A program made the translations under genes and the position numbers. DNA of 47,184 nt. Source: a virus. Under the pieces are notes generated by a model. The model searched no databases. It had not been told where the DNA came from and worked only from the letters and a program-made list of their open reading frames with translations. The stretch lies in IMG/VR virus record IMGVR_UViG_3300028007_000004, positions 1 through 47,184 of that record; one strand, given 5' to 3'. Shown here piece after piece: positions 616 through 43,445 of the stretch (its first letter is position 1; each line of letters starts with the position of its first letter).

Positions 616-3426
616 TTAGTCTTTCATGTAATAGGGTGTTTCAAAACCTGCCGCATCCAGTGGAAGACCGGGTGCCCAATCAAGCGGTTCGCGCATGATG
701 TTAATAATTTCTTCCAAAGCACCGTCGTTGTCCTCATCGCACTCCACCACAATCTCATCATGGATAGACATAATGATCTGATAACCTTTTGCTGCCACCT
801 TCTTCATAATATCCGCAATCACGTCTCTGGCTGTGGCTTGTACGATGTTCTCGACCAGCTTACCACCATAAGTGTCAATAAGCTTCCACTGCTTCGTAGT
901 TTGATCCATACCCTCGTAACACAGCATTGAACCACCAAACTTACCAGGCTTCAACTTAGGACGCAAATAAGCAAGCGTTCTTCCGGATGGTAACTCTATA
1001 AACAATAAGCCTTTCTTGGTGTAGAATTTGAGGAAGTTAGCTGAGAGTCTTACGGGGTTACCTTCGACAGCTGATATGACAGCGTGTTCCACCAAAGTCC
1101 ATAAATTAACTATCTTCTGGTTAGCGGCTCTCCATGCATCAATAAGCGGTTTGAGTTCTGCTTCTTGCAAACCCATCTTCAACGCGCCCATATTAATCAG
1201 AGCATTGGGGCCGCCACCAAAACCACAATTATGTACAAGTACTCCCGATACAGTGAAACGGTTATTTGGTCCAGCGTTTAGGATGTCATAGACTTCTACG
1301 CCTGTTTCAATGCCGTTAAAACGACAATCCTTCCTTATATCGGAAGAAGCATAAAGCGCTACCTCGTCAAATCCCGTTTCAAGTAAATCGTAGTTACCAA
1401 CCACAACTTGAATTAAAGAGTAGCTGTTGTAAGGGTCTACCCAAACGATATGGTCCATTGTGGCTTTTAGCGGACCATAATGAATAATATCTCTTATACC
1501 TCTGTACACAACACCTCCATGGCTCACCCAATTTTCACCATCCCAAACTTTATGGGCGAGCGTTACATCTTGAATAGGCACAAGACCTTGATGGGTAAGC
1601 ACAAGTTCATCTTTAGCAATACAAGCTAATTCTGCCACTTTACCTTTCTGTCTGAGTGGTGATCCTTTACCAATCGTCTCAATAGGCACTTTAAACATTT
1701 GGGATGCTGACGCTTCGTATATTTTACCATGTGTGTTAAACACATCTAATCTCCATTTCTCACCAGCGAACCAAGCGATTACACGGGCTTCGATGGCGGA
1801 TAAGTCGACAACGGTTAGTTTCTTGCCTTTTGGTGCAACAAAAGCAGTTCTAATCAGCTGAGAAAGCGTGTCAGGTACATTACCAAAAGCAAGTTCAAGG
1901 TTCTCTGCGTCACCATCAAGTACGAGCTGACGAGCAAAATCAATATCCGGTATTTTGTTTTGTGGAAGATTTTGCACCTGCACCAATCTACCTGAATTAG
2001 ATACAATTCTACCGTCGCACCAAAACCGGTTGTTTGGTCCAGCGTTAATGATGTCGTAAGTAGAAATTTGAAACTGCGTATCAAAAAAAGGATTCTCCGG
2101 TTTTACACCGCTAACGTGCCACTCTCGATAAGCCTCACCTTTCCATAATGGTAAATTTAACCTCTTTGCTTCGCCGAGAGAAATTTTCATATCTGGATCA
2201 ACAAAAACTTTATGCTCCGGTGTTGCTGTAACACCATCGTGTTCAATAACAAATTTCTCACCGCTGTAAACAACACCTTCGTGAAAAACCCATTGCAAAC
2301 CATCAAAAACTTGATCGGTTATTTCTACCTCCTCAATAGGCTTTTTTCCTATCCATCCTTCATCTGTCTTAACTAGAACCAAAGAACCCTCAGCAATACA
2401 CCACCGGCCTGTCCTCGCAGCACCGTAGAACTGCAACAAGCCACGGATGCGTCCGTCTTTACAAACGCAGTGCGCCATGGCTAAATATTTTTTAACAGAG
2501 GTTTTGGATAGTTCCTGACGAATTTCGAGCATCCGTTGAATATGACTTTCGCTGTATTTCTTCATAAGATCCGGAACGTCTGCTTTACGAAGTGTTTGTA
2601 TTTCTTCTCCGGTCTCGTATTCTAACCAACGTATCACTTGCGATACGCTGTTTGGGTTTTCTAATTTGGTCAGTTCCTTTGCTTCTTCAATCAATCTTGC
2701 TTTATACGCCTCATCAATAATGATGGCGTTTTTTACGAGCCTCTTATTGATCTTAACACCATAGTCATTGATTTGCTGATCAAGATGCCACAAGCGCATT
2801 TCGCTTTCAGGAACAGTAAAAAAGTCCAGCTTGTTTCTGATTGATAATTCTACCTCAACGTCTTTCACACAGTAATTCAAAAACTGCCGCCACTTCTCAG
2901 GCGAATGCTCCGGCAGGTTTCTTGTTCTTTCGTTATTAGCTTTGGTTGGTTTACACGGCAGTGAAAAATATCTAATCAATTGTCTACCCGTCATATCTTT
3001 TTGCACGTTCAGTTTAAGCACTTCTGCTACTTGTGCAAGAGACATCGGAAGCCCAAGCATAGCACCTTTTACCATGGTGCACTCCCACTGCTCAATAGGT
3101 AAGTTAATCTTAAAGAAAGCCGACAAACAAGTTCTTTCAAAAGCCGCGTTGAAGGCGGTTTTAAGCACTTCGGGGTTTTGTAAGTCTTCGCAAAAAGACT
3201 CCATAAATTGCAAGTAATCTTTCCAAGCAAGCGGTCCGTATTTTTCAATGTACCAATCCGCGTCCATGTAGTCTTGTCTAATGTCTATGATTTTCACAGG
3301 CTCGCCGTCATAAGAGTAGGCAATCATCAACACTTCAAACTCCGGATGCTCTGCGTATTTGTAAACACCTGACTTGATCAAATCAACGGGTGAGTAGGTT
3401 TCAATGTCTATGGATAGTGTTCTCAT
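616..3426 (-). CDS. polA: Family A DNA polymerase with 3'-5' exonuclease domain and two inteins
   Basis: This is the replicative polymerase, 936 residues before splicing and about 669 after. The DEDDy exonuclease motifs are DIETYSP (7-13), NAAFE (93-97) and YCVKD (185-189). The polymerase part has the template-binding TGRW...SGR segment (split by intein 1), motif A DLSAIEAR (541-548), motif B R592...K596 (split by intein 2) and motif C HDE (889-891). The residue equivalent to E. coli Phe762 is Leu600. I chose the ATG at 3426 because it overlaps the upstream TGA as ATGA and starts directly before the exonuclease strand; an in-frame ATG at 3450 would add eight residues. It belongs with the DUF2815 and DUF2800 genes upstream. 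Confidence 0.93.
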   Translation of the reverse strand: MRTLSIDIETYSPVDLIKSGVYKYAEHPEFEVLMIAYSYDGEPVKIIDIRQDYMDADWYIEKYGPLAWKDYLQFMESFCEDLQNPEVLKTAFNAAFERTCLSAFFKINLPIEQWECTMVKGAMLGLPMSLAQVAEVLKLNVQKDMTGRQLIRYFSLPCKPTKANNERTRNLPEHSPEKWRQFLNYCVKDVEVELSIRNKLDFFTVPESEMRLWHLDQQINDYGVKINKRLVKNAIIIDEAYKARLIEEAKELTKLENPNSVSQVIRWLEYETGEEIQTLRKADVPDLMKKYSESHIQRMLEIRQELSKTSVKKYLAMAHCVCKDGRIRGLLQFYGAARTGRWCIAEGSLVLVKTDEGWIGKKPIEEVEITDQVFDGLQWVFHEGVVYSGEKFVIEHDGVTATPEHKVFVDPDMKISLGEAKRLNLPLWKGEAYREWHVSGVKPENPFFDTQFQISTYDIINAGPNNRFWCDGRIVSNSGRLVQVQNLPQNKIPDIDFARQLVLDGDAENLELAFGNVPDTLSQLIRTAFVAPKGKKLTVVDLSAIEARVIAWFAGEKWRLDVFNTHGKIYEASASQMFKVPIETIGKGSPLRQKGKVAELACIAKDELVLTHQGLVPIQDVTLAHKVWDGENWVSHGGVVYRGIRDIIHYGPLKATMDHIVWVDPYNSYSLIQVVVGNYDLLETGFDEVALYASSDIRKDCRFNGIETGVEVYDILNAGPNNRFTVSGVLVHNCGFGGGPNALINMGALKMGLQEAELKPLIDAWRAANQKIVNLWTLVEHAVISAVEGNPVRLSANFLKFYTKKGLLFIELPSGRTLAYLRPKLKPGKFGGSMLCYEGMDQTTKQWKLIDTYGGKLVENIVQATARDVIADIMKKVAAKGYQIIMSIHDEIVVECDEDNDGALEEIINIMREPLDWAPGLPLDAAGFETPYYMKD
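1228..1623 (-). other. Mini-intein 2 in PolA (motif B / O-helix)
   Basis: This is a 132-residue in-frame insertion. It starts CIAKDELVLTHQG (block A, Cys1), has TMDH as block B, and ends YDILNAGPNNRF...LVHN (blocks F and G), with Cys as the +1 extein residue. Removing it joins KVAELA to CGFGGG and restores motif B with correct spacing. There is no room for a homing endonuclease domain, so it is a mini-intein expected to self-splice. Splicing is inferred from intact catalytic residues. Confidence 0.88.
1996..2400 (-). other. Mini-intein 1 in PolA (TGRW|SGR motif)
   Basis: This is a 135-residue in-frame insertion starting CIAEGSLVLVKT (block A), with TPEH as block B and ending YDIINAGPNNRF...RIVSN, +1 residue Ser. 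Removing it joins GAARTGRW to SGRLVQVQNLP, the normal primer-template contact motif of phage PolA. The penultimate residue is Ser rather than the usual His. It is clearly related to intein 2 and also lacks an endonuclease domain. Confidence 0.88.
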
Positions 3427-5992: not shown

Positions 5993-6262
5993 TTAAATAG
6001 TAGCGATTTCTTTAGCTCTTTTACTTTTAGCAGATGGCGATTTTACTTTTGGGCGGATAGCTGTGTTTACTTCCAATACCCAATAATACCCCATTTTACC
6101 AATAGAGATAACACCTCTCAATACGGAAGATTTATAAGGCGCAGCCTCGCCATTATCAACAGCAGTGCGCAACGCACGCGATACAACATTTACGGACAGC
6201 TGGCAGTGCTGTGCAAATTCCGATGCGGTCATTGGTTCAATTACTTGTTTCTTTGATACCAT
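5993..6262 (-). CDS. Small winged-helix-like DNA-binding protein
   Basis: This 89-residue protein is the first gene of the leftward replication operon. Residues 10-38 (MTASEFAQHCQLSVNVVSRAL) read as a helix-turn-helix; a wing-like segment (GVISIGKMGYYWVLE) and a basic tail (RPKVKSPSAKSKRAKE) follow. It starts 20 bases below a perfect promoter that shares an inverted repeat with the divergent promoter, so it is a natural candidate for the regulator of that switch. DNA binding and target are inferred. Confidence 0.65.
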   Translation of the reverse strand: MVSKKQVIEPMTASEFAQHCQLSVNVVSRALRTAVDNGEAAPYKSSVLRGVISIGKMGYYWVLEVNTAIRPKVKSPSAKSKRAKEIATI

Positions 6263-6281
6263 GTCATATACGATTTGAAAG

Positions 6282-6312
6282 CAAATATAGGACGAAAAAT
6301 TAATTAACCAAA
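6282..6312 (-). promoter_or_regulatory. Leftward promoter for the replication operon
   Basis: TTTG (6312-6309) and TATATTTG (6289-6282) on the minus strand are separated by 19 bases, an exact match to the Bacteroidota consensus. The ATG of the helix-turn-helix gene is 20 bases further on. Confidence 0.85.
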
Positions 6313-6328
6313 TATTTTTTGGTTAATT
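6302..6328. promoter_or_regulatory. Operator-like palindrome shared by two divergent promoters
   Basis: A perfect inverted repeat has arms AATTAACCAAA (6302-6312) and TTTGGTTAATT (6318-6328) around five bases. Each arm contains the -33 box of one promoter, so a dimer bound here would block or activate both. The binding protein is unknown. Confidence 0.7.
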
Positions 6329-6348
6329 GAATAAACTTTTTATTTTTG
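6318..6348 (+). promoter_or_regulatory. Rightward promoter for the accessory cluster
   Basis: TTTG (6318-6321), 19 bases, then TATTTTTG (6341-6348): an exact consensus match. The first ATG is at 6369, giving a short leader. Confidence 0.85.
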
Positions 6349-6368
6349 GTGTCTAAACAAAAAGAAAT

Positions 6369-6770
6369 ATGTCGAACACACCACCCAACACCCGACCATT
6401 CAATTTGCAGGACTTTCTTGCAGGTAAACCGATAGTATGTAGGAATGGATTTGTACCACAAGACATTCACTATTTTAAGGACGCACATAATAATCACACG
6501 CCAATATTTTTTGGCACTAATGAAGGGACTGTTATGCGATGCGATAGAAATGGCGTATGCCCATCTGATTTGGTAAATAACAGTGATAATAAATACGACC
6601 TCTTCCACCCCTGCGAGCAAAAGGAAGGATGGGTGAAGTTATATAGGAAAAATTTTGGAGAAGTATATGTAAGGCATGCCGATGTTCATAATTTAGAAGA
6701 ACAAGCTAAAAGATTTGTAAAAGTTCCAGATGACTACCTAACCACCGTAAAAATAACATGGTATGAATAA
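6369..6770 (+). CDS. Conserved small phage protein, function unknown
   Basis: This 133-residue protein is the first gene of the rightward cluster. The opening RPFNLQDFLAGKPIVCRNG pattern is, from memory, shared by small proteins common in Bacteroidota phages. Two Cys pairs (CRNG; MRCDRNGVCPSD) and a HPCEQK segment could bind a metal. It overlaps the next gene by eight bases. No catalytic motif is visible; an early accessory role is inferred from its promoter. Confidence 0.75.
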   Translation: MSNTPPNTRPFNLQDFLAGKPIVCRNGFVPQDIHYFKDAHNNHTPIFFGTNEGTVMRCDRNGVCPSDLVNNSDNKYDLFHPCEQKEGWVKLYRKNFGEVYVRHADVHNLEEQAKRFVKVPDDYLTTVKITWYE

Positions 6771-24554: not shown

Positions 24555-25109
24555 TTAACAAATCTGTTTGTATCGCAATCGGAAATTAACCCGAAAGCAG
24601 TGATAAGGCTCCATATCTCGAAATTTGAGTCCTTGGTCTCTTATCGGTCCTGGATATTCTCTAAACACGTTTTCGACGCCCGTTTCAAAACCTGTAAACT
24701 GAAAACCATAAAGTTTTCGGTTGTACAGTAGGTTTACCACATCTATTCTTACTTCCTCGTCGGCTCTGTCTGTTTGATTTTTCAAAGCTTTTAAGTTGAC
24801 AAAGAAATGAATGCTGCATGTTGTTTCGAGATCACCACCAATCAAGTTTGTCGCTTCCCCAACAGAGAAGAAAGACAAGGCTTTTATCTTATCATCCAAG
24901 TACACTTCTTTGTACTGTTTTGATCCGATATACACCTCTGCAACCGTACCGGTAGACTTCTCGTTTTTGTATGCACGGGCATACGAATTGTAATCCAAAG
25001 AACTATCAGCGTTAAGTCCCCAAGTTGCTACAAGTCTGTCGTAGAGCCATTCTTGTAAGTTATGGATAGGTATATCCACGCCCTCTTTCTCGGTCTTGGT
25101 ATACTTCAT
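24555..25109 (-). CDS. Head-tail connector or tail terminator candidate
   Basis: This 184-residue protein starts MKYTKTEKEGVDIPIHNLQEWLYDRL and has mixed alpha/beta sequence with Tyr-rich strands near the end (PYHCFRVNFRLRYKQIC). It lies between an unknown head gene and the probable tail-tube gene, where tail terminator and neck proteins are encoded. Its start overlaps the end of the upstream gene by 50 bases; a GTG at the VDIPIHN codon would shorten the overlap. No family match seen. Confidence 0.55.
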   Translation of the reverse strand: MKYTKTEKEGVDIPIHNLQEWLYDRLVATWGLNADSSLDYNSYARAYKNEKSTGTVAEVYIGSKQYKEVYLDDKIKALSFFSVGEATNLIGGDLETTCSIHFFVNLKALKNQTDRADEEVRIDVVNLLYNRKLYGFQFTGFETGVENVFREYPGPIRDQGLKFRDMEPYHCFRVNFRLRYKQIC

Positions 25110-37671: not shown

Positions 37672-37726
37672 TTTTGTGCGTTTGCTCAATCCGTACTAAA
37701 ATGATCCGACAAATTCAGCAAAAATT

Positions 37727-37820
37727 TGTAGTGTTTTTACTACATAAAAATGTAGTGTTATTACTACAAAACGTGTAGTGTTATTACTACAAACGCTTGT
37801 AGTGATATTACTACAAGCGT
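37727..37820. repeat. Four 18-base palindromes at 23-24 base spacing
   Basis: Copies at 37727-37744, 37751-37768, 37774-37791 and 37798-37815 have TGTAGT/ACTACA arms around six variable AT-rich bases. The last extends to an 11-base perfect arm (ACGCTTGTAGT, 37793-37820). Spacing of just over two helical turns suggests cooperative binding of a dimeric protein. No gene starts within 100 bases downstream on the plus strand, so an origin or partition site is as likely as an operator. Confidence 0.85.
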
Positions 37821-37827
37821 TTCAACC

Positions 37828-37904
37828 CACCAGAGTTTTTTGATCCAAAAATGACACCAGAGTTTTTTGATCCAAAAATGACACCAGAGTTTTTTGATCC
37901 AAAA
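37828..37904. repeat. Three 27-base direct repeats (iteron-like)
   Basis: Copies begin at 37828, 37855 and 37882. They are identical over the first 23 bases, and each holds CACCAGAG followed by TTTTTTGATCCAAAA, a near-palindrome around GATC. The third copy stops at the HNH gene's stop codon, which suggests the endonuclease gene was inserted into or beside the array. Confidence 0.88.
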
Positions 37905-38462
37905 TTACTCTTGTGATTTTATATCATCCCCGTAAATTTCTAATCGTGCTTTTCTGTACGCTTCGTGTGCTTGTTCTGGTGTAGAAAAATATCCTAAATG
38001 CAAATTAGTCTTTTTAATCGGACACCATATTTGCCCTGCCCATCTTATTCCGTATTTTTTAGTTTGTTTACTTCTAACACCTACATAAGGTGCTTTTCTA
38101 TCCCATTTAACATTTTTAAAAGTTAAATTATTTATTCTTTTACAAGCTCTTAAATTGTGAATAGTAAAATTACTAGGATTACCATCTATGTGGTCTACGT
38201 CCTCATTACTTTCAAGTGTTCTTACAAAACTCTCAAACATAATCCTGTGTAACATTCTACGTTGCCCTTGTAGATGTACGCAAACATATCCATCTTTGTC
38301 TTTGTCTTTAGACACTGTCTTAATAATACCTTTTATAAAAAGTTCCCACTTCTTACCTAACTTGCTTTTAACCTCAACCCACCTATCAAGTGATCGAACA
38401 TTTCCTTGGTCACTTACTTCGTAAATACCTTCAAAACCTCTAATTGGTTTCCACTGCTCCAT
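37905..38462 (-). CDS. HNH homing endonuclease with NUMOD4 and AP2 domains
   Basis: This 185-residue protein has an N-terminal NUMOD4 (WKPIRGFEGIYEVSDQGNVRSL, residues 4-25), an HNH core (LHRIMFESFV...VDHIDGNPSNFTIHNLRA, about 71-107) and a C-terminal AP2 domain (YVGVRSKQTKKYGIRWAGQI...LGYFSTPEQAHEAYRKAR). All three are typical parts of free-standing phage homing endonucleases. Catalytic His residues are present. It lies between the helicase gene and the direct repeats, interrupting the replication arm. Confidence 0.92.
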   Translation of the reverse strand: MEQWKPIRGFEGIYEVSDQGNVRSLDRWVEVKSKLGKKWELFIKGIIKTVSKDKDKDGYVCVHLQGQRRMLHRIMFESFVRTLESNEDVDHIDGNPSNFTIHNLRACKRINNLTFKNVKWDRKAPYVGVRSKQTKKYGIRWAGQIWCPIKKTNLHLGYFSTPEQAHEAYRKARLEIYGDDIKSQE

Positions 38463-38573: not shown

Positions 38574-39953
38574 TTAAACCAAATATTTATCTATCCTCGC
38601 CTTCACTGCTTCCATCAAAGCGTCTTGCCCTTTCACTTTATTCTCCAAAGCTCTTAACACATCCTCATCCATAGTGCCTTTACAGATCAATCTATAATTC
38701 CGGACCACCTCGCACTGCCCTTGTCTGTGTAACCTGGCGACTGCTTGCTGATACAGCTCCAAACTCCAAGGCAACTGAAACCAAATGATCACGTTACCTC
38801 CATGCTGTAAATTCAGTCCGTGCCCTGCGGAAGCTGGATGCGCCATCAAAACATCAATTTTCCCTTCGTTCCAATCATCCATGTCCTTGTTGCACTCTAG
38901 TAACCTGACCTCCCCAAAGCTTTTCAAACCTTGCTGCAATCTCGGTATATTGTGTTTATAGGCGTAAAACAAAAGCACAGGCTTACCATTGGCGGATTCT
39001 ATAAGTTCCTTGACTTTATACATCTTTTCATCATGCACCTCAAAAACAGCCTTATTTTCATCATAAACAGCCCCGTTGGAAAACTGCAACAACTTATTGG
39101 TCAGTCCAGCTGCGTTTGTCGTGGTGATCTCCTTATCATGCTCGAACAGCTTTAACACCTCCATCTTCTCAAATTCCAGATACTTCTTCATCACATCCGC
39201 ACTAAACTCAATATTCTCATCAATATCCAACCTATCCGGTAATTCCAAATAATCCTTCGCCTTCATGCTCACACATATATCCCCGATTTTATCATAAATT
39301 TTCTGCTCAGAGTCTTCCAGCGGCTTGTAGCTATACACCACATGCCCGTTCATCTTACCTGGCTTAAAATACGCATCACGGTAAGCCGTAATGGTCCGAC
39401 CCAAACGCTCACCCATATCCATCAAATACAGTTGACTCCACAGATCCAACAAACCATTCGGTGCTGGTGTACCGGTAAGCCCTACCAAACGCGTGATCTT
39501 GCCTCTCACCATTTTAAGCGCCCTGAACCTTTTTGATTGGTGGTTTTTAAACGAACTCAACTCATCAATCACCACCATATCGAACATCCAGTGCCCGCCT
39601 AAATGGGCCACCAACCATTCCACATTTTCTCGGTTAATGGTGTAAATGTCTGCCTTCTTCATAAGGGCTGCTTTACGCTGGGCGGCTGGACCGAGAATTT
39701 TCACCAGTTTCAAGCCCTTCAGATGCGCCCAGGCATTAATCTCATTGTACCAAGTGTAATCAGCCACCTTTTTAGGCGCAATCACCAAAACCCTCCGTAC
39801 CTCACAGTAGTCATTCATCAACTGATCAATCGCGGTAAGCGTGGTAGCGGTCTTCCCAAGCCCCATATCCAAAAACAACCCACAGAAGGGGTTTTTAATG
39901 ATGTGTTCAACCCCAAACTTTTGGTAATTGTGTAAATCATCCTTTGTTCTCAT
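38574..39953 (-). CDS. SNF2/SF2 helicase
   Basis: The 459-residue protein has motif I GLFLDMGLGKT (25-35), motif II VIDEL (128-132), motif III-like GLTGTPAPN, and motif VI QQAVARLHRQGQ near 410-421. It is expected to move along double-stranded DNA using ATP and act in phage DNA replication or repair. Phages place this enzyme beside a VRR-NUC nuclease and a VirE-type helicase, as here; the nuclease gene overlaps its start by four bases. Confidence 0.92.
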   Translation of the reverse strand: MRTKDDLHNYQKFGVEHIIKNPFCGLFLDMGLGKTATTLTAIDQLMNDYCEVRRVLVIAPKKVADYTWYNEINAWAHLKGLKLVKILGPAAQRKAALMKKADIYTINRENVEWLVAHLGGHWMFDMVVIDELSSFKNHQSKRFRALKMVRGKITRLVGLTGTPAPNGLLDLWSQLYLMDMGERLGRTITAYRDAYFKPGKMNGHVVYSYKPLEDSEQKIYDKIGDICVSMKAKDYLELPDRLDIDENIEFSADVMKKYLEFEKMEVLKLFEHDKEITTTNAAGLTNKLLQFSNGAVYDENKAVFEVHDEKMYKVKELIESANGKPVLLFYAYKHNIPRLQQGLKSFGEVRLLECNKDMDDWNEGKIDVLMAHPASAGHGLNLQHGGNVIIWFQLPWSLELYQQAVARLHRQGQCEVVRNYRLICKGTMDEDVLRALENKVKGQDALMEAVKARIDKYLV

Positions 39954-40261
39954 ATCAATTCGTTTTGTAGTTTTTCAATGTATTCCTTTACGGTTTTTTT
40001 ACTCCAAACAAGATCAACATCAACACCATAACTACGAAGCTGCTCGTGAACCTTTTTCTGCGCCTCTGACAAACCGTGGCGCGTATCGGGCGCTTTCAAT
40101 TCGACGAATCTCACCGGCAAACCCTTCAAAATAATCATCCGGTCAGGCATCCCCCTAAACCATGGACTATATAGCTTCAAACACAATCCTCCCATCTTCT
40201 TTATTTCCCTCACCAGCATCATCTCAATACTCTTTTCAGACACCCTAATTTTATTGCTCAT
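39950..40261 (-). CDS. VRR-NUC domain nuclease
   Basis: From the ATG at 40261 (MSNKIRVSEKSIEMML) this protein has 103 residues; an ATG at 40297 would add twelve. The nuclease core is present: Glu in SEKSIE, RGMPDRMIIL with catalytic Asp, and FVELKAPDTRHGLSEAQ with Glu-Leu-Lys. VRR-NUC proteins act as structure-specific DNA nucleases, here probably on replication or recombination intermediates. It is translationally coupled to the helicase gene. Confidence 0.9.
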   Translation of the reverse strand: MSNKIRVSEKSIEMMLVREIKKMGGLCLKLYSPWFRGMPDRMIILKGLPVRFVELKAPDTRHGLSEAQKKVHEQLRSYGVDVDLVWSKKTVKEYIEKLQNELI

Positions 40262-40309
40262 TTCTTTAACCTTTTTTATTGTTGGCGGTGTTGACATAGT
40301 AAAAATCGC

Positions 40310-40400
40310 AAAAAGTTAAAAACCCTATATATTACGTAAATATACCCCCTATATAACTTATTATTACTATATATACCTATATTTTCTAATTATAGTGTAT
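40310..40400. other. AT-rich stretch, possible DNA unwinding element
   Basis: About 90 bases are almost entirely A and T, with short Cs, rich in TATATA-type steps. It directly adjoins the TACTATGCCA repeats and separates the primase and nuclease genes. Together they have the make-up of an iteron-type replication origin. Confidence 0.55.
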
Positions 40401-40571
40401 TTTACTATGCCATTATGCCAAAGTGGTTCAAACCCTTTACTGTATTGCGTTTGACTTGGCATAGTAAATGGCATAGTAGAATTTTTTTACTATGCCATTA
40501 TGCCAACACTTCTGAATTGCTTGGCATAGTATAATTTTACTACTCCACGTACTATGCCACGTACTATGCCA
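40400..40571. repeat. Seven TACTATGCCA iterons in both orientations
   Basis: The 10-base motif is at 40403, 40488, 40550 and 40562 (plus) and 40457, 40469 and 40522 (minus). Two extra TTATGCCAA half-copies lie at 40413 and 40498, making a 22-base block repeated at 40400-40421 and 40485-40506. Two pairs (40457/40469 and 40550/40562) are spaced 12 bases. This fills the gap between primase and VRR-NUC genes and has no coding content. Confidence 0.88.
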
Positions 40572-40601
40572 CAAAATAAAGAGCTTTTTTTGGTTAAACA
40601 T

Positions 40602-43445
40602 TTAATCAAATTCAACATCATATCTATCGATATGAATGTATGCGGTTTGTTTTCCAAAACCGTTAAAATGTAGCTGATTTTTTGCCTTCACCCACTTACT
40701 TCCTTTCCTGCATACAGACTCTCTGATCATACGGTGGTACTCTCTGGTGTTCCAATTATTGATGTCTTTTCTCGTAAAACCCATAAGATCAAAAAGTATA
40801 TCCAAAACACATATTTTAGCTCTTTCTACGATTATTGGCTCATATCCATTTTGATCACACCAATGCTTAACACCTTCAATCGCTTCATTTCTGACTACTT
40901 CTTTTTCTTCCGGCGTAAAGCCTCGTTCCTTCCCCTCTGCCTCTCTTATCTTGTTTATCAGTCCCTCCCCCGCAATTTTAAACTTATCCCCCCATACACC
41001 TGTGTACTCTTTACGCTTGTACATATCCATGTACTCCCACTCGAAAGGAATAGGCATATCAAAATACGTCGCTATCATTCCGCCTCTCTCATCCCCCACC
41101 TTATTCGCGGTTTGCTGCTCCTTGGCTTGTTCTATGGCTTCGCCCTCTAGCACCAGCTTCTCCCCAGCCAAATAACGCTCCAACGCCTCCGCCCATATTT
41201 GTTTCACGTCCTCCCCTGACAGATCCCCCTTTCCATCTTCCCCACCCCACAAGCTCTTAGTCCTTCTCTCAAAACCATCTTCTCCGTCCTCAATATTAAT
41301 CGGCCACCATCTACGGTTCTGTTCGTCTTTCAGGAACCCGTCGACTTCGTTAGTGGTAGCGGTGAACACGCACTGACGATCGAAAGTCTCGGTCCGCTTT
41401 AAATAAGCCCCACGGAAAGTATCGCTACGCTTCGATATGAAATGCTTCACGCTCTCTACCTCGGCTTTTTTAAGTCCGGCTAGTTCTGCCAGCTCAATAA
41501 TCCAGAAACCCTGTATGAGCTCATAAGCCTCCTTAGTACCAACCCCTCCGAAACTATCAGAGTACCACTCACCACCCAACCGAGCAAATATCTCACTCTT
41601 ACCAAGCCCCTGCGACCCGACAAGCGTGATCACGGTGTCGAACTTCACACCCGGGCTGAGCACGCGAGCAACCGCAGCAACTAAGAACTTCCGTGTCGCC
41701 TGGCGCACGTATTCAGAGTCCTCTACGCCGAAGAAATCCATGAAAAGCGTGTCAATACGCTCAGTACCATCCCAGATAGTCCGCCTTTTTAAGTTTGAAT
41801 TCCTGGTCGGCTCATTTTTGAGCGCTCCTTTATTACCTACCGTCGGCTTAACCGAGGGCAGCATAAGCCCTTGCAAATAAGACTTAACAGGGTGAAAAGA
41901 GTGCTTGCGGATGTGTAAGAGCAGAGCGTCTTGGATCTTTTGCTGGCCGGTAATGCCATACACCTTCTCTAAATAATGCCTTACACCACTGTCATCTGCG
42001 TCCGTCATAACATCATAGCCCTTACGCTTGCGTCGCCATGGTGGTGAGACCATAATGCACTCACGCTTACGGAAATCATCCCAAGCGAAAACGCCCTTCA
42101 AGCGCGGATCGTTCTCTAAGATCATTAACACATTATCTACCGTAGAGTGGTAATTGCCTTTTTTGTCCATGGACAGCTTCTCCATCCACTTTACGTCCTC
42201 ATCACCTACATCCACTCTACGCTCCGGCTCGAATGCGGAGTCGAAGGTGAGCAAACCTTCGTTTTGATCATATTCAACAACACCCACCAAATTCCCTTCT
42301 TCATCCACACTGCCTTCGCCCAAAGCACTCTCATCCTCATCCTCTCCGATATCATACCCATCATCAAACAGACTGATACGCTCCTGCCCTAACAAGGCCT
42401 TAACCGGACCATCTTTGGTGACGAACTCAGTCATGGCTGCATAACTTGGTAATGCATTAATAGCGGTACCTGGTTCTGCGTCTTCATCCTTTAAACCGAA
42501 CAAGTGCAAGCGCACCAGATCGAAACTGTTACAGAGCTTACCACCAGCAGGGTCCGTGCTGTGATGTGAATAAGCGAATTTATCATCGTAGGTAACAAGA
42601 CCGGAAGCGGTTGAGCCGTGCTTGTACGTGTAGCGTCTGCCCTCATCCGGACCGTCGACAGGCTGGTACACTTCGGGTAGGAATTTCTCAATTGCCTCAT
42701 GGATATCGTAACAGCGACAGAAGGCACCGACCAGACCAGGCTTTTCAGTTGGCTCGCCTTGCTTCGACATCCCCCTTTCAATCAATCGATCGACTTTAAC
42801 GCTGACCGGGTATTCGCTGATATCTGTCCAATCATCGTACTGAGCGAGCACCGCGTCCACATCAAGCCATTTACCGTCTTGGTACTCGAACACGTACACA
42901 CCATCTTTTGAGGTGCTGGGCCAATACATAAGACGTTCAGGCTCGAAGCCGGTATGATCGAACCACTCAATATCTAGATCACCGGCAACTCTGCGACCGA
43001 TGGCGATGTACTCATCCGGCGAAACAGGTCGAGACAGCGGAAGCACAAGGCGTAAGCGCTGCGCATGCGGTGAGTGTTTGTGCGTGGAGTAGACACAGGC
43101 GGCGCAGTCGTAGAGGAAAGTGAAATCGCCCCACAGGTCAGCTTTAGCAGGGATATGATCAGCGTCGAGCGTGAGCACTTCACGGCTTACCACTGTGCCT
43201 TTTTTACGCCTACCGCCACTGATTGTACCCCCCACAAAAGCACCGATATCCTTGCGCTCGTCTTGCAAAGGCTTGGGCATGTTCATGAACTCTTGGTGCG
43301 TCTCTGTGGTCCGGTGCGTCTCTGAGAGCCTGGCAACCAGATCAGACCATTGCAATTCTTTGTTCTTCCATCTTATTTCCTTGCGGCTTTTACCGATGGA
43401 AATGTGTACCGCCCCGTCGTGGGTAAGTTGAATATTTTCTGGCAT
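40602..43445 (-). CDS. Primase fused to VirE/D5-type helicase
   Basis: In this 947-residue protein the N-terminal part resembles an archaeo-eukaryotic-type primase: LTLDADHI (about 92-99) and HSPHAQRLRLVLPLSRPV (about 124-141). A linker rich in Asp, Glu and Gly lies near 355-400. The C-terminal half is a VirE-type P-loop helicase: Walker A VGSQGLGKSE (609-618), Walker B-like WIIELAEL (648-655), TATTNE sensor (695-700) and NRRWWPI (710-716). It should prime and unwind DNA at the origin; the iteron array lies directly at its 3' end. Confidence 0.9.
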   Translation of the reverse strand: MPENIQLTHDGAVHISIGKSRKEIRWKNKELQWSDLVARLSETHRTTETHQEFMNMPKPLQDERKDIGAFVGGTISGGRRKKGTVVSREVLTLDADHIPAKADLWGDFTFLYDCAACVYSTHKHSPHAQRLRLVLPLSRPVSPDEYIAIGRRVAGDLDIEWFDHTGFEPERLMYWPSTSKDGVYVFEYQDGKWLDVDAVLAQYDDWTDISEYPVSVKVDRLIERGMSKQGEPTEKPGLVGAFCRCYDIHEAIEKFLPEVYQPVDGPDEGRRYTYKHGSTASGLVTYDDKFAYSHHSTDPAGGKLCNSFDLVRLHLFGLKDEDAEPGTAINALPSYAAMTEFVTKDGPVKALLGQERISLFDDGYDIGEDEDESALGEGSVDEEGNLVGVVEYDQNEGLLTFDSAFEPERRVDVGDEDVKWMEKLSMDKKGNYHSTVDNVLMILENDPRLKGVFAWDDFRKRECIMVSPPWRRKRKGYDVMTDADDSGVRHYLEKVYGITGQQKIQDALLLHIRKHSFHPVKSYLQGLMLPSVKPTVGNKGALKNEPTRNSNLKRRTIWDGTERIDTLFMDFFGVEDSEYVRQATRKFLVAAVARVLSPGVKFDTVITLVGSQGLGKSEIFARLGGEWYSDSFGGVGTKEAYELIQGFWIIELAELAGLKKAEVESVKHFISKRSDTFRGAYLKRTETFDRQCVFTATTNEVDGFLKDEQNRRWWPINIEDGEDGFERRTKSLWGGEDGKGDLSGEDVKQIWAEALERYLAGEKLVLEGEAIEQAKEQQTANKVGDERGGMIATYFDMPIPFEWEYMDMYKRKEYTGVWGDKFKIAGEGLINKIREAEGKERGFTPEEKEVVRNEAIEGVKHWCDQNGYEPIIVERAKICVLDILFDLMGFTRKDINNWNTREYHRMIRESVCRKGSKWVKAKNQLHFNGFGKQTAYIHIDRYDVEFD

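Follow-up and report, generated by a model that had tools for sequence, protein, structure and literature searches.

Iteron plasmids of the RepA type (pSC101, R6K, P1) use a separate RepA-type initiator, usually together with DnaA. The alpha protein of satellite P4 is a fused primase-helicase that recognises the iterons of its own origin. The C-terminal domain of SaPI Rep is reported to recognise iterons located directly 3' of its own gene (PMC7581432), and the isolated C-terminal domain of SCCmec Cch2 to bind short direct repeats that immediately follow the cch2 gene (PMC7581432). The origins of PICIs contain AT-rich DNA between two iteron sets, a layout that has in the past been called unique to phage satellites (PMC6092414). 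Streptococcus phage Sfi21 carries an annotated 302-bp ori (NC_000872, 34487-34784). The Sfi21 ori region is reported to act as an independent replication origin, which inhibits the phage when supplied in copies (PMC6356513). As PICI and Sfi21 origins share their layout, this kind of origin is already known. In open-access papers, we found no report of a fixed geometry with changing letters, of a residue-base rule, or of a swap cassette, and none on the spread of such origins in VapE tailed phages.

Here, we analyse a locus of this kind in a 47-kb virus record, the whole 47,184-nt stretch of which is referred to as the window. The gap between its vapE and nuclease genes is very likely the replication origin of the phage, read by the C-terminal winged domain of VapE. 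The computed basis of this assignment comprises the position of the array, its conserved geometry, the homology of VapE to PriRep1, and the covariation between residues and bases.

Genomic setting

The window encodes terminase, portal, tail, and virion proteins along with a DNA polymerase and an exonuclease, and the relatives of its portal are mostly phages of Bacteroidota. Its own terminase, portal, and tail proteins exclude a PICI satellite. The genes at the putative origin are as follows.

40602..43445, minus strand: VapE-type primase-helicase of 947 aa, the proposed initiator, with a helicase homologous to PriRep1 (7pds)
40626..40694, minus strand: codons 918-940 of vapE, C-terminal beta-hairpin and proposed iteron reader, with Lys932 at 40650-40652
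39950..40297, minus strand: VRR-NUC nuclease gene, downstream of the putative origin (Pfam, PHROGs)
38574..39953, minus strand: SNF2-type helicase, the next gene in the conserved cassette (Pfam, PHROGs)

The closest solved relative of the window VapE is the SaPI-type initiator PriRep1 (7pds; phmmer 1e-58, profile E 1e-116, Foldseek E 2e-28, about 400 columns), the deposition titles of which read 'similar to D. nodosus vapE' and 'PriRep1 with dsDNA'. This homology covers the helicase half of VapE. The N-terminal part is primase-like, featuring D-x-D and S-T-H-x-H motifs that we take to mark an archaeo-eukaryotic primase, and PHROGs labels the relatives of VapE as primase or helicase. In the phage collection, 900 records match the VapE helicase. 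With 947 aa against about 800, the window protein is longer than its relatives, owing to insertions around aa 526-556 and in the C-terminal part.

Organization of the repeat array

The gap holds the following elements, where F and R designations refer to the common template described below.

40298..40601, 304 bp: vapE-nuclease gap, with both flanking genes (VapE and VRR-NUC) on the minus strand
40403..40571, minus strand: main iteron block (repeat scan, template fit)
40485..40506, minus strand: first forward pair, second copy of the 22-base block (template elements F0/F9)
40457..40478, minus strand: inverted pair with 12 bp spacing (template elements R29/R41)
40400..40421, minus strand: AT-proximal forward pair, one copy of the 22-base block (template elements F86/F95)
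40298..40402, no strand: AT-rich stretch and putative unwinding element, 79% AT, rich in TATATA/TATAG
40292..40301, minus strand: TACTATGTCA, distal inverted iteron with one mismatch, which overlaps the start codon of the nuclease gene

Seven exact copies of TACTATGCCA are present, at 40403(+), 40457(-), 40469(-), 40488(+), 40522(-), 40550(+), and 40562(+). The chance expectation for the whole window is 0.15, and none of 100 shuffles reached seven. An earlier note on this DNA had listed these seven copies, two half copies (CATTATGCCA, at 40411 and 40496), a duplicated 22-base block (TTTTACTATGCCATTATGCCAA, exact at 40400-40421 and 40485-40506), the adjacent AT-rich region, and the placement between primase-helicase and nuclease genes, all of which we recovered. 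It had overlooked the distal copy at 40292-40301 beyond the AT-rich stretch, a degenerate copy at 40538 (TACTACTCCA) that continues the 12-bp spacing of 40550 and 40562, and the defined order in which the copies face both directions. Read in gene sense, the main block starts with forward copies at 40562 and 40550 (12 bp apart, with the degenerate 40538) and a reverse copy at 40522, followed by the forward pair 40496/40488 (8 bp), the reverse pair 40469/40457 (12 bp), and the forward pair 40411/40403 (8 bp). The 22-base block is the F pair of the template, with the half copies as the weaker partners in those pairs. The first iteron lies 31 bp from the vapE stop. In total, the AT-rich stretch has nine sites to one side and, to the other, one site with a single mismatch, and the window holds no second cluster of comparable size.

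The earlier note had also seen a classical iteron origin here. Its reading as an origin stands, supported by the place, geometry, and helicase covariation shared with relatives, with the refinement that this is not a classical origin of the RepA/DnaA type. The DnaA box TTWTNCACA has no match in 39950-40601 (nine in the whole window, with seven expected), and Pfam recognises no RepA-type initiator among the ten proteins around and upstream of the array, only VapE, VRR-NUC, SNF2, MTase, HNH, and a peptidase. GC skew, which the note had proposed as a check, is negative throughout the array without inflection, as expected with all genes tested on one strand, and is uninformative. An Rfam search gave no RNA match.

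Two further groups of repeats occur in the window. Four tandem palindromes (TGTAGTG-N-TATTACTACA) form two 47-bp units, 81% alike, at 37721-37822; they are operator-like and bear no relation to the iterons of the putative origin. The second group consists of three 27-bp direct repeats in tandem (CACCAGAGTTTTTTGATCCAAAAATGA) at 37828-37908, where the HNH endonuclease gene has its 3' end.

Arrays in relatives

The gene order VapE, VRR-NUC, SNF2 is conserved in relatives. The equivalent gaps of Listeria LWP01, Clostridioides phiCDKH02, and Enterococcus phiFL4A contain arrays with other letters (GTCAACA, GTATCCA), accompanied by an AT-rich tract and, next to the nuclease start, a distal site in inverted orientation. 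A first survey placed a significant array at most 320 bp from the vapE stop at 105 of 167 loci. In the dereplicated survey, the array was located in the gap at 90 of 152 VapE loci (about 60%), and none was detected in the gap at about 40% of the surveyed loci. The exact iteron pattern of the window had no match in viral_contigs, and the gap DNA showed no similarity to the phage collection because iteron letters diverge too fast for BLAST. On whether relatives lack the array, which the earlier note had named as evidence against an origin, the result is divided: the letters of the window were not found in relatives, whereas the architecture was.

There are exceptions in position. Two relatives have no gap after vapE and carry the array elsewhere, namely Croceibacter P2559Y (42880-43087) and Elizabethkingia TCUEAP1 (24888-25109; layout FF, AT-rich, RR). 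An array was also looked for in Bacteroides BF486P2, and none was found. As a separate observation, P2559Y (L483 5083-5233) contains a tandem repeat of the coding type among its structural genes, with eleven CCTAAGG spaced by 15 bp.

At the family level, the iteron approximates TGKNAMCAA with base 4 free (roughly TGKNNMCA). The window iteron TGGCATAG matches this consensus in its first half and is missing the usual C at base 7. The arrays share a common template, in gene sense F0 F9, R29 R41, F86 F95, about 100 bp of AT-rich DNA, and R195 R204, that is, an inverted pair between two direct pairs, the AT-rich part, and then one or more inverted sites. This template was derived from L013 and its relatives; the first-set count thus leaves out every locus with 90% or more identity to L013, and the held-out loci are independent of the template source. 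With each site counted once and random arrays given an equal number of sites, at least seven of the eight template positions were occupied in 33 of 92 first-set arrays (random expectation 0.00) and in 22 of 60 held-out arrays (random expectation 0.03). The window, one of 56 first-set loci and outside the held-out set, occupies seven of eight, as many as were reached in 1 of 3000 random arrays. On the distal side, relatives have pairs where the window has a single imperfect site. The AT-rich part exceeds the iteron block in AT content at 52 of 56 loci and is enriched in alternating steps such as CGTATATA.

Covariation between VapE and iteron letters

Prior to the covariation tests, the iteron register of the window was fixed manually as TGGCATAGT on the basis of the layout. 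A partial Mantel comparison of iteron distance with windows along VapE gave no regional signal, and single-column tests were therefore needed. Among 4185 associations between iteron positions and helicase columns in 92 dereplicated loci, the three strongest all involve the C-terminal hairpin, where base 3 is linked to residue 932 (z 15), base 4 to residue 922, and base 6 to residue 924. Detected in the first set, the 932/base-3 association was then predicted on held-out loci (<90% identical to every earlier locus), where Lys/Arg was present at 932 in 7/7 loci with G at base 3 and in 3/25 with T (p=3.6e-5).

Tree-independent contrasts gave the same picture. When the C-terminal domain was left out of the tree, there were 16 node-disjoint closest pairs with a G/T difference at base 3; 15 of these show a concordant switch of Lys/Arg with G, and none is reversed. 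The runner-up among 794 VapE columns scores 6, and columns of VRR-NUC and SNF2 score 4 at most. The window obeys the rule, with Lys932 and G at base 3 (TGG). Lys/Arg nevertheless occurs in 8 of 56 T-iterons, and P2559Y and TCUEAP1 pair a hairpin Lys with T iterons, contrary to the rule. Residues 922 and 924 were rejected as established further readers, since their mutual information is high but their tree-independent pairs stand at 6:1, a rank tied with unrelated columns; they remain suggestive only as reading positions. A match of Asn/Gln with A at base 3 was discarded for too few cases. Structurally, an AlphaFold2 model of aa 545-947 (mean pLDDT 87) places 922 and 924 in strand one and 932 in strand two of a terminal beta-hairpin.

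Natural exchange of hairpin and iterons

Three members of a C. difficile phage family (L034, L037, and L035) have VapE proteins that are 98-99% identical. L037 and L035 differ in nine VapE residues, all at window positions 920-939, and their iterons differ as well. In the three phages, the exchanged block spans about -140 to +270 relative to the vapE stop (around 6250-6665) and comprises the last ~45 vapE codons and every iteron, with the flanks shown being 97-100% identical. Within it, each iteron copy is altered at the same place and the AT-rich core is nearly constant. Pairs of VapE proteins at least 95% identical that share iterons show up to 31 differing residues, none of them in the C-terminal hairpin domain. 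Covariation and natural swaps thus favour recognition of the iterons by the C-terminal domain of VapE, which would bind them directly. The tree-independent residue rule is the stronger evidence of the two, because linkage alone could move hairpin and iterons together.

Proposed mechanism and alternatives

We postulate that VapE occupies two places, namely the ordered iteron pairs to one side of the AT-rich tract and, beyond the tract, the inverted site at the start of the nuclease gene, with its C-terminal hairpin contacting TGGCATAGTA sites specifically. The two resulting VapE assemblies would then be opposed to one another. In analogy to SaPI Rep, the tract between them may melt, and each assembly may load as a helicase ring for a bidirectional start, while the N-terminal primase would lay primers. 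We further consider it reasonably probable that VapE phages share one origin blueprint, in which the geometry is frozen and the letters drift, a few hairpin residues set specificity, and near-identical phages trade hairpin and iterons as one cassette. In such a blueprint, 932 would read base 3, and possibly 922 base 4 and 924 base 6. As the iterons adjoin the hairpin codons, one recombination event can exchange both, changing origin specificity, and selection may favour such change.

Initiator binding sites often also autoregulate. The array could be an operator through which VapE or another phage protein regulates the nuclease-helicase genes, with replication starting elsewhere; it lies inside a same-strand gene run, and one copy overlaps a start codon. 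We consider this very unlikely, given that the promoter and terminator scan stayed at chance level (2 promoters found versus 2.9 expected). Moreover, an operator leaves unexplained the AT-rich tract kept between opposed sites over about 200 bp and the array moved to unrelated gaps in two relatives, and the sole residue tracking the letters belongs to a replicative helicase. Physical linkage alone has a slightly smaller chance still of accounting for the joint switch of hairpin and iterons. The hairpin codons do adjoin the array, and a 3' vapE recombination block spanning both could carry them without any recognition, but linkage gives no reason for one residue type per base in 16 independent contrasts (15:0, next column 6). 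Neither does it predict the chemically sensible match of Lys/Arg with G, or the change of all iteron copies around a nearly constant AT-rich core.

The least probable alternative in our estimate is a sink or incompatibility locus for VapE, a repeat resembling copy-control loci at which replication does not open. The extra iterons at 40522-40571, upstream of the template block, exceed the core geometry and would suit such a role, and satellite P4 has a replication region, crr, apart from its origin. An AT-rich tract flanked by inverted site sets is, however, what a melting site requires, the tracts being more AT-rich than the iteron block at the 52 of 56 loci given above, and the equivalent layout in Sfi21 is annotated as an origin and reported as an independent one (PMC6356513).

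The origin reading would provide a computable origin for a large phage group whose gene is usually annotated just as 'virulence-associated protein E'. It also supplies a recognition rule, from residue to base, that is amenable to a single-substitution test, and a natural specificity-switch cassette that would let close phages avoid cross-talk at their origins; L034, L037, and L035 are a candidate system for studies of origin incompatibility. If true, origins with frozen geometry and drifting letters would be the phage counterpart of plasmid incompatibility groups, and the force behind their change of specificity may be the need to escape resident prophages or satellites sharing the origin.

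Comparison with known systems

With RepA-type plasmids, the locus shares iterons beside AT-rich DNA and differs in having neither a RepA-type initiator among the ten proteins nor a DnaA box in the gap. P4 alpha with ori/crr (mentioned in PMC6092414) is likened by description, being a fused primase-helicase like VapE; P4 differs in needing crr as a second region. Cch2 likewise has a helicase gene with repeats directly 3' and a putative origin, whereas its helicase is of the D5/Primase_Cterm type, its repeats are three AAGTG, and the element is integrated.

The Sfi21 ori is closer in layout, lying directly 3' of the helicase gene and consisting of a direct pair (8 bp), AT-rich DNA, and an inverted pair (8 bp) before the next gene. 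A core of this type is recognisable in the window as 40411/40403, the AT-rich 40298-40402, and the inverted 40292. Sfi21 differs by its simpler array and its D5-type helicase (Pox_D5, DUF5906), which has no detectable VapE-profile match, whereas the window helicase is of the VapE type.

The SaPI/PICI Rep-ori systems share most with the window: an initiator homologous to the self-loading helicase SaPI Rep (PriRep1, 7pds), iterons immediately 3' of the initiator gene, and two iteron sets around an AT-rich stretch. Reading by the C-terminal domain of the initiator would be a further parallel, which covariation and natural swaps support. The eight-site geometry and the residue-base code were not found in the open-access papers searched, and the window, unlike a satellite, represents a tailed phage that has terminase, portal, and tail genes. 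As a whole, the best reading is an origin resembling the SaPI/PICI PriRep type, in which the primase-helicase itself reads the iterons. This would extend a satellite-type origin layout to ordinary tailed phages and bear on the emergence of satellites and their competition with helpers.
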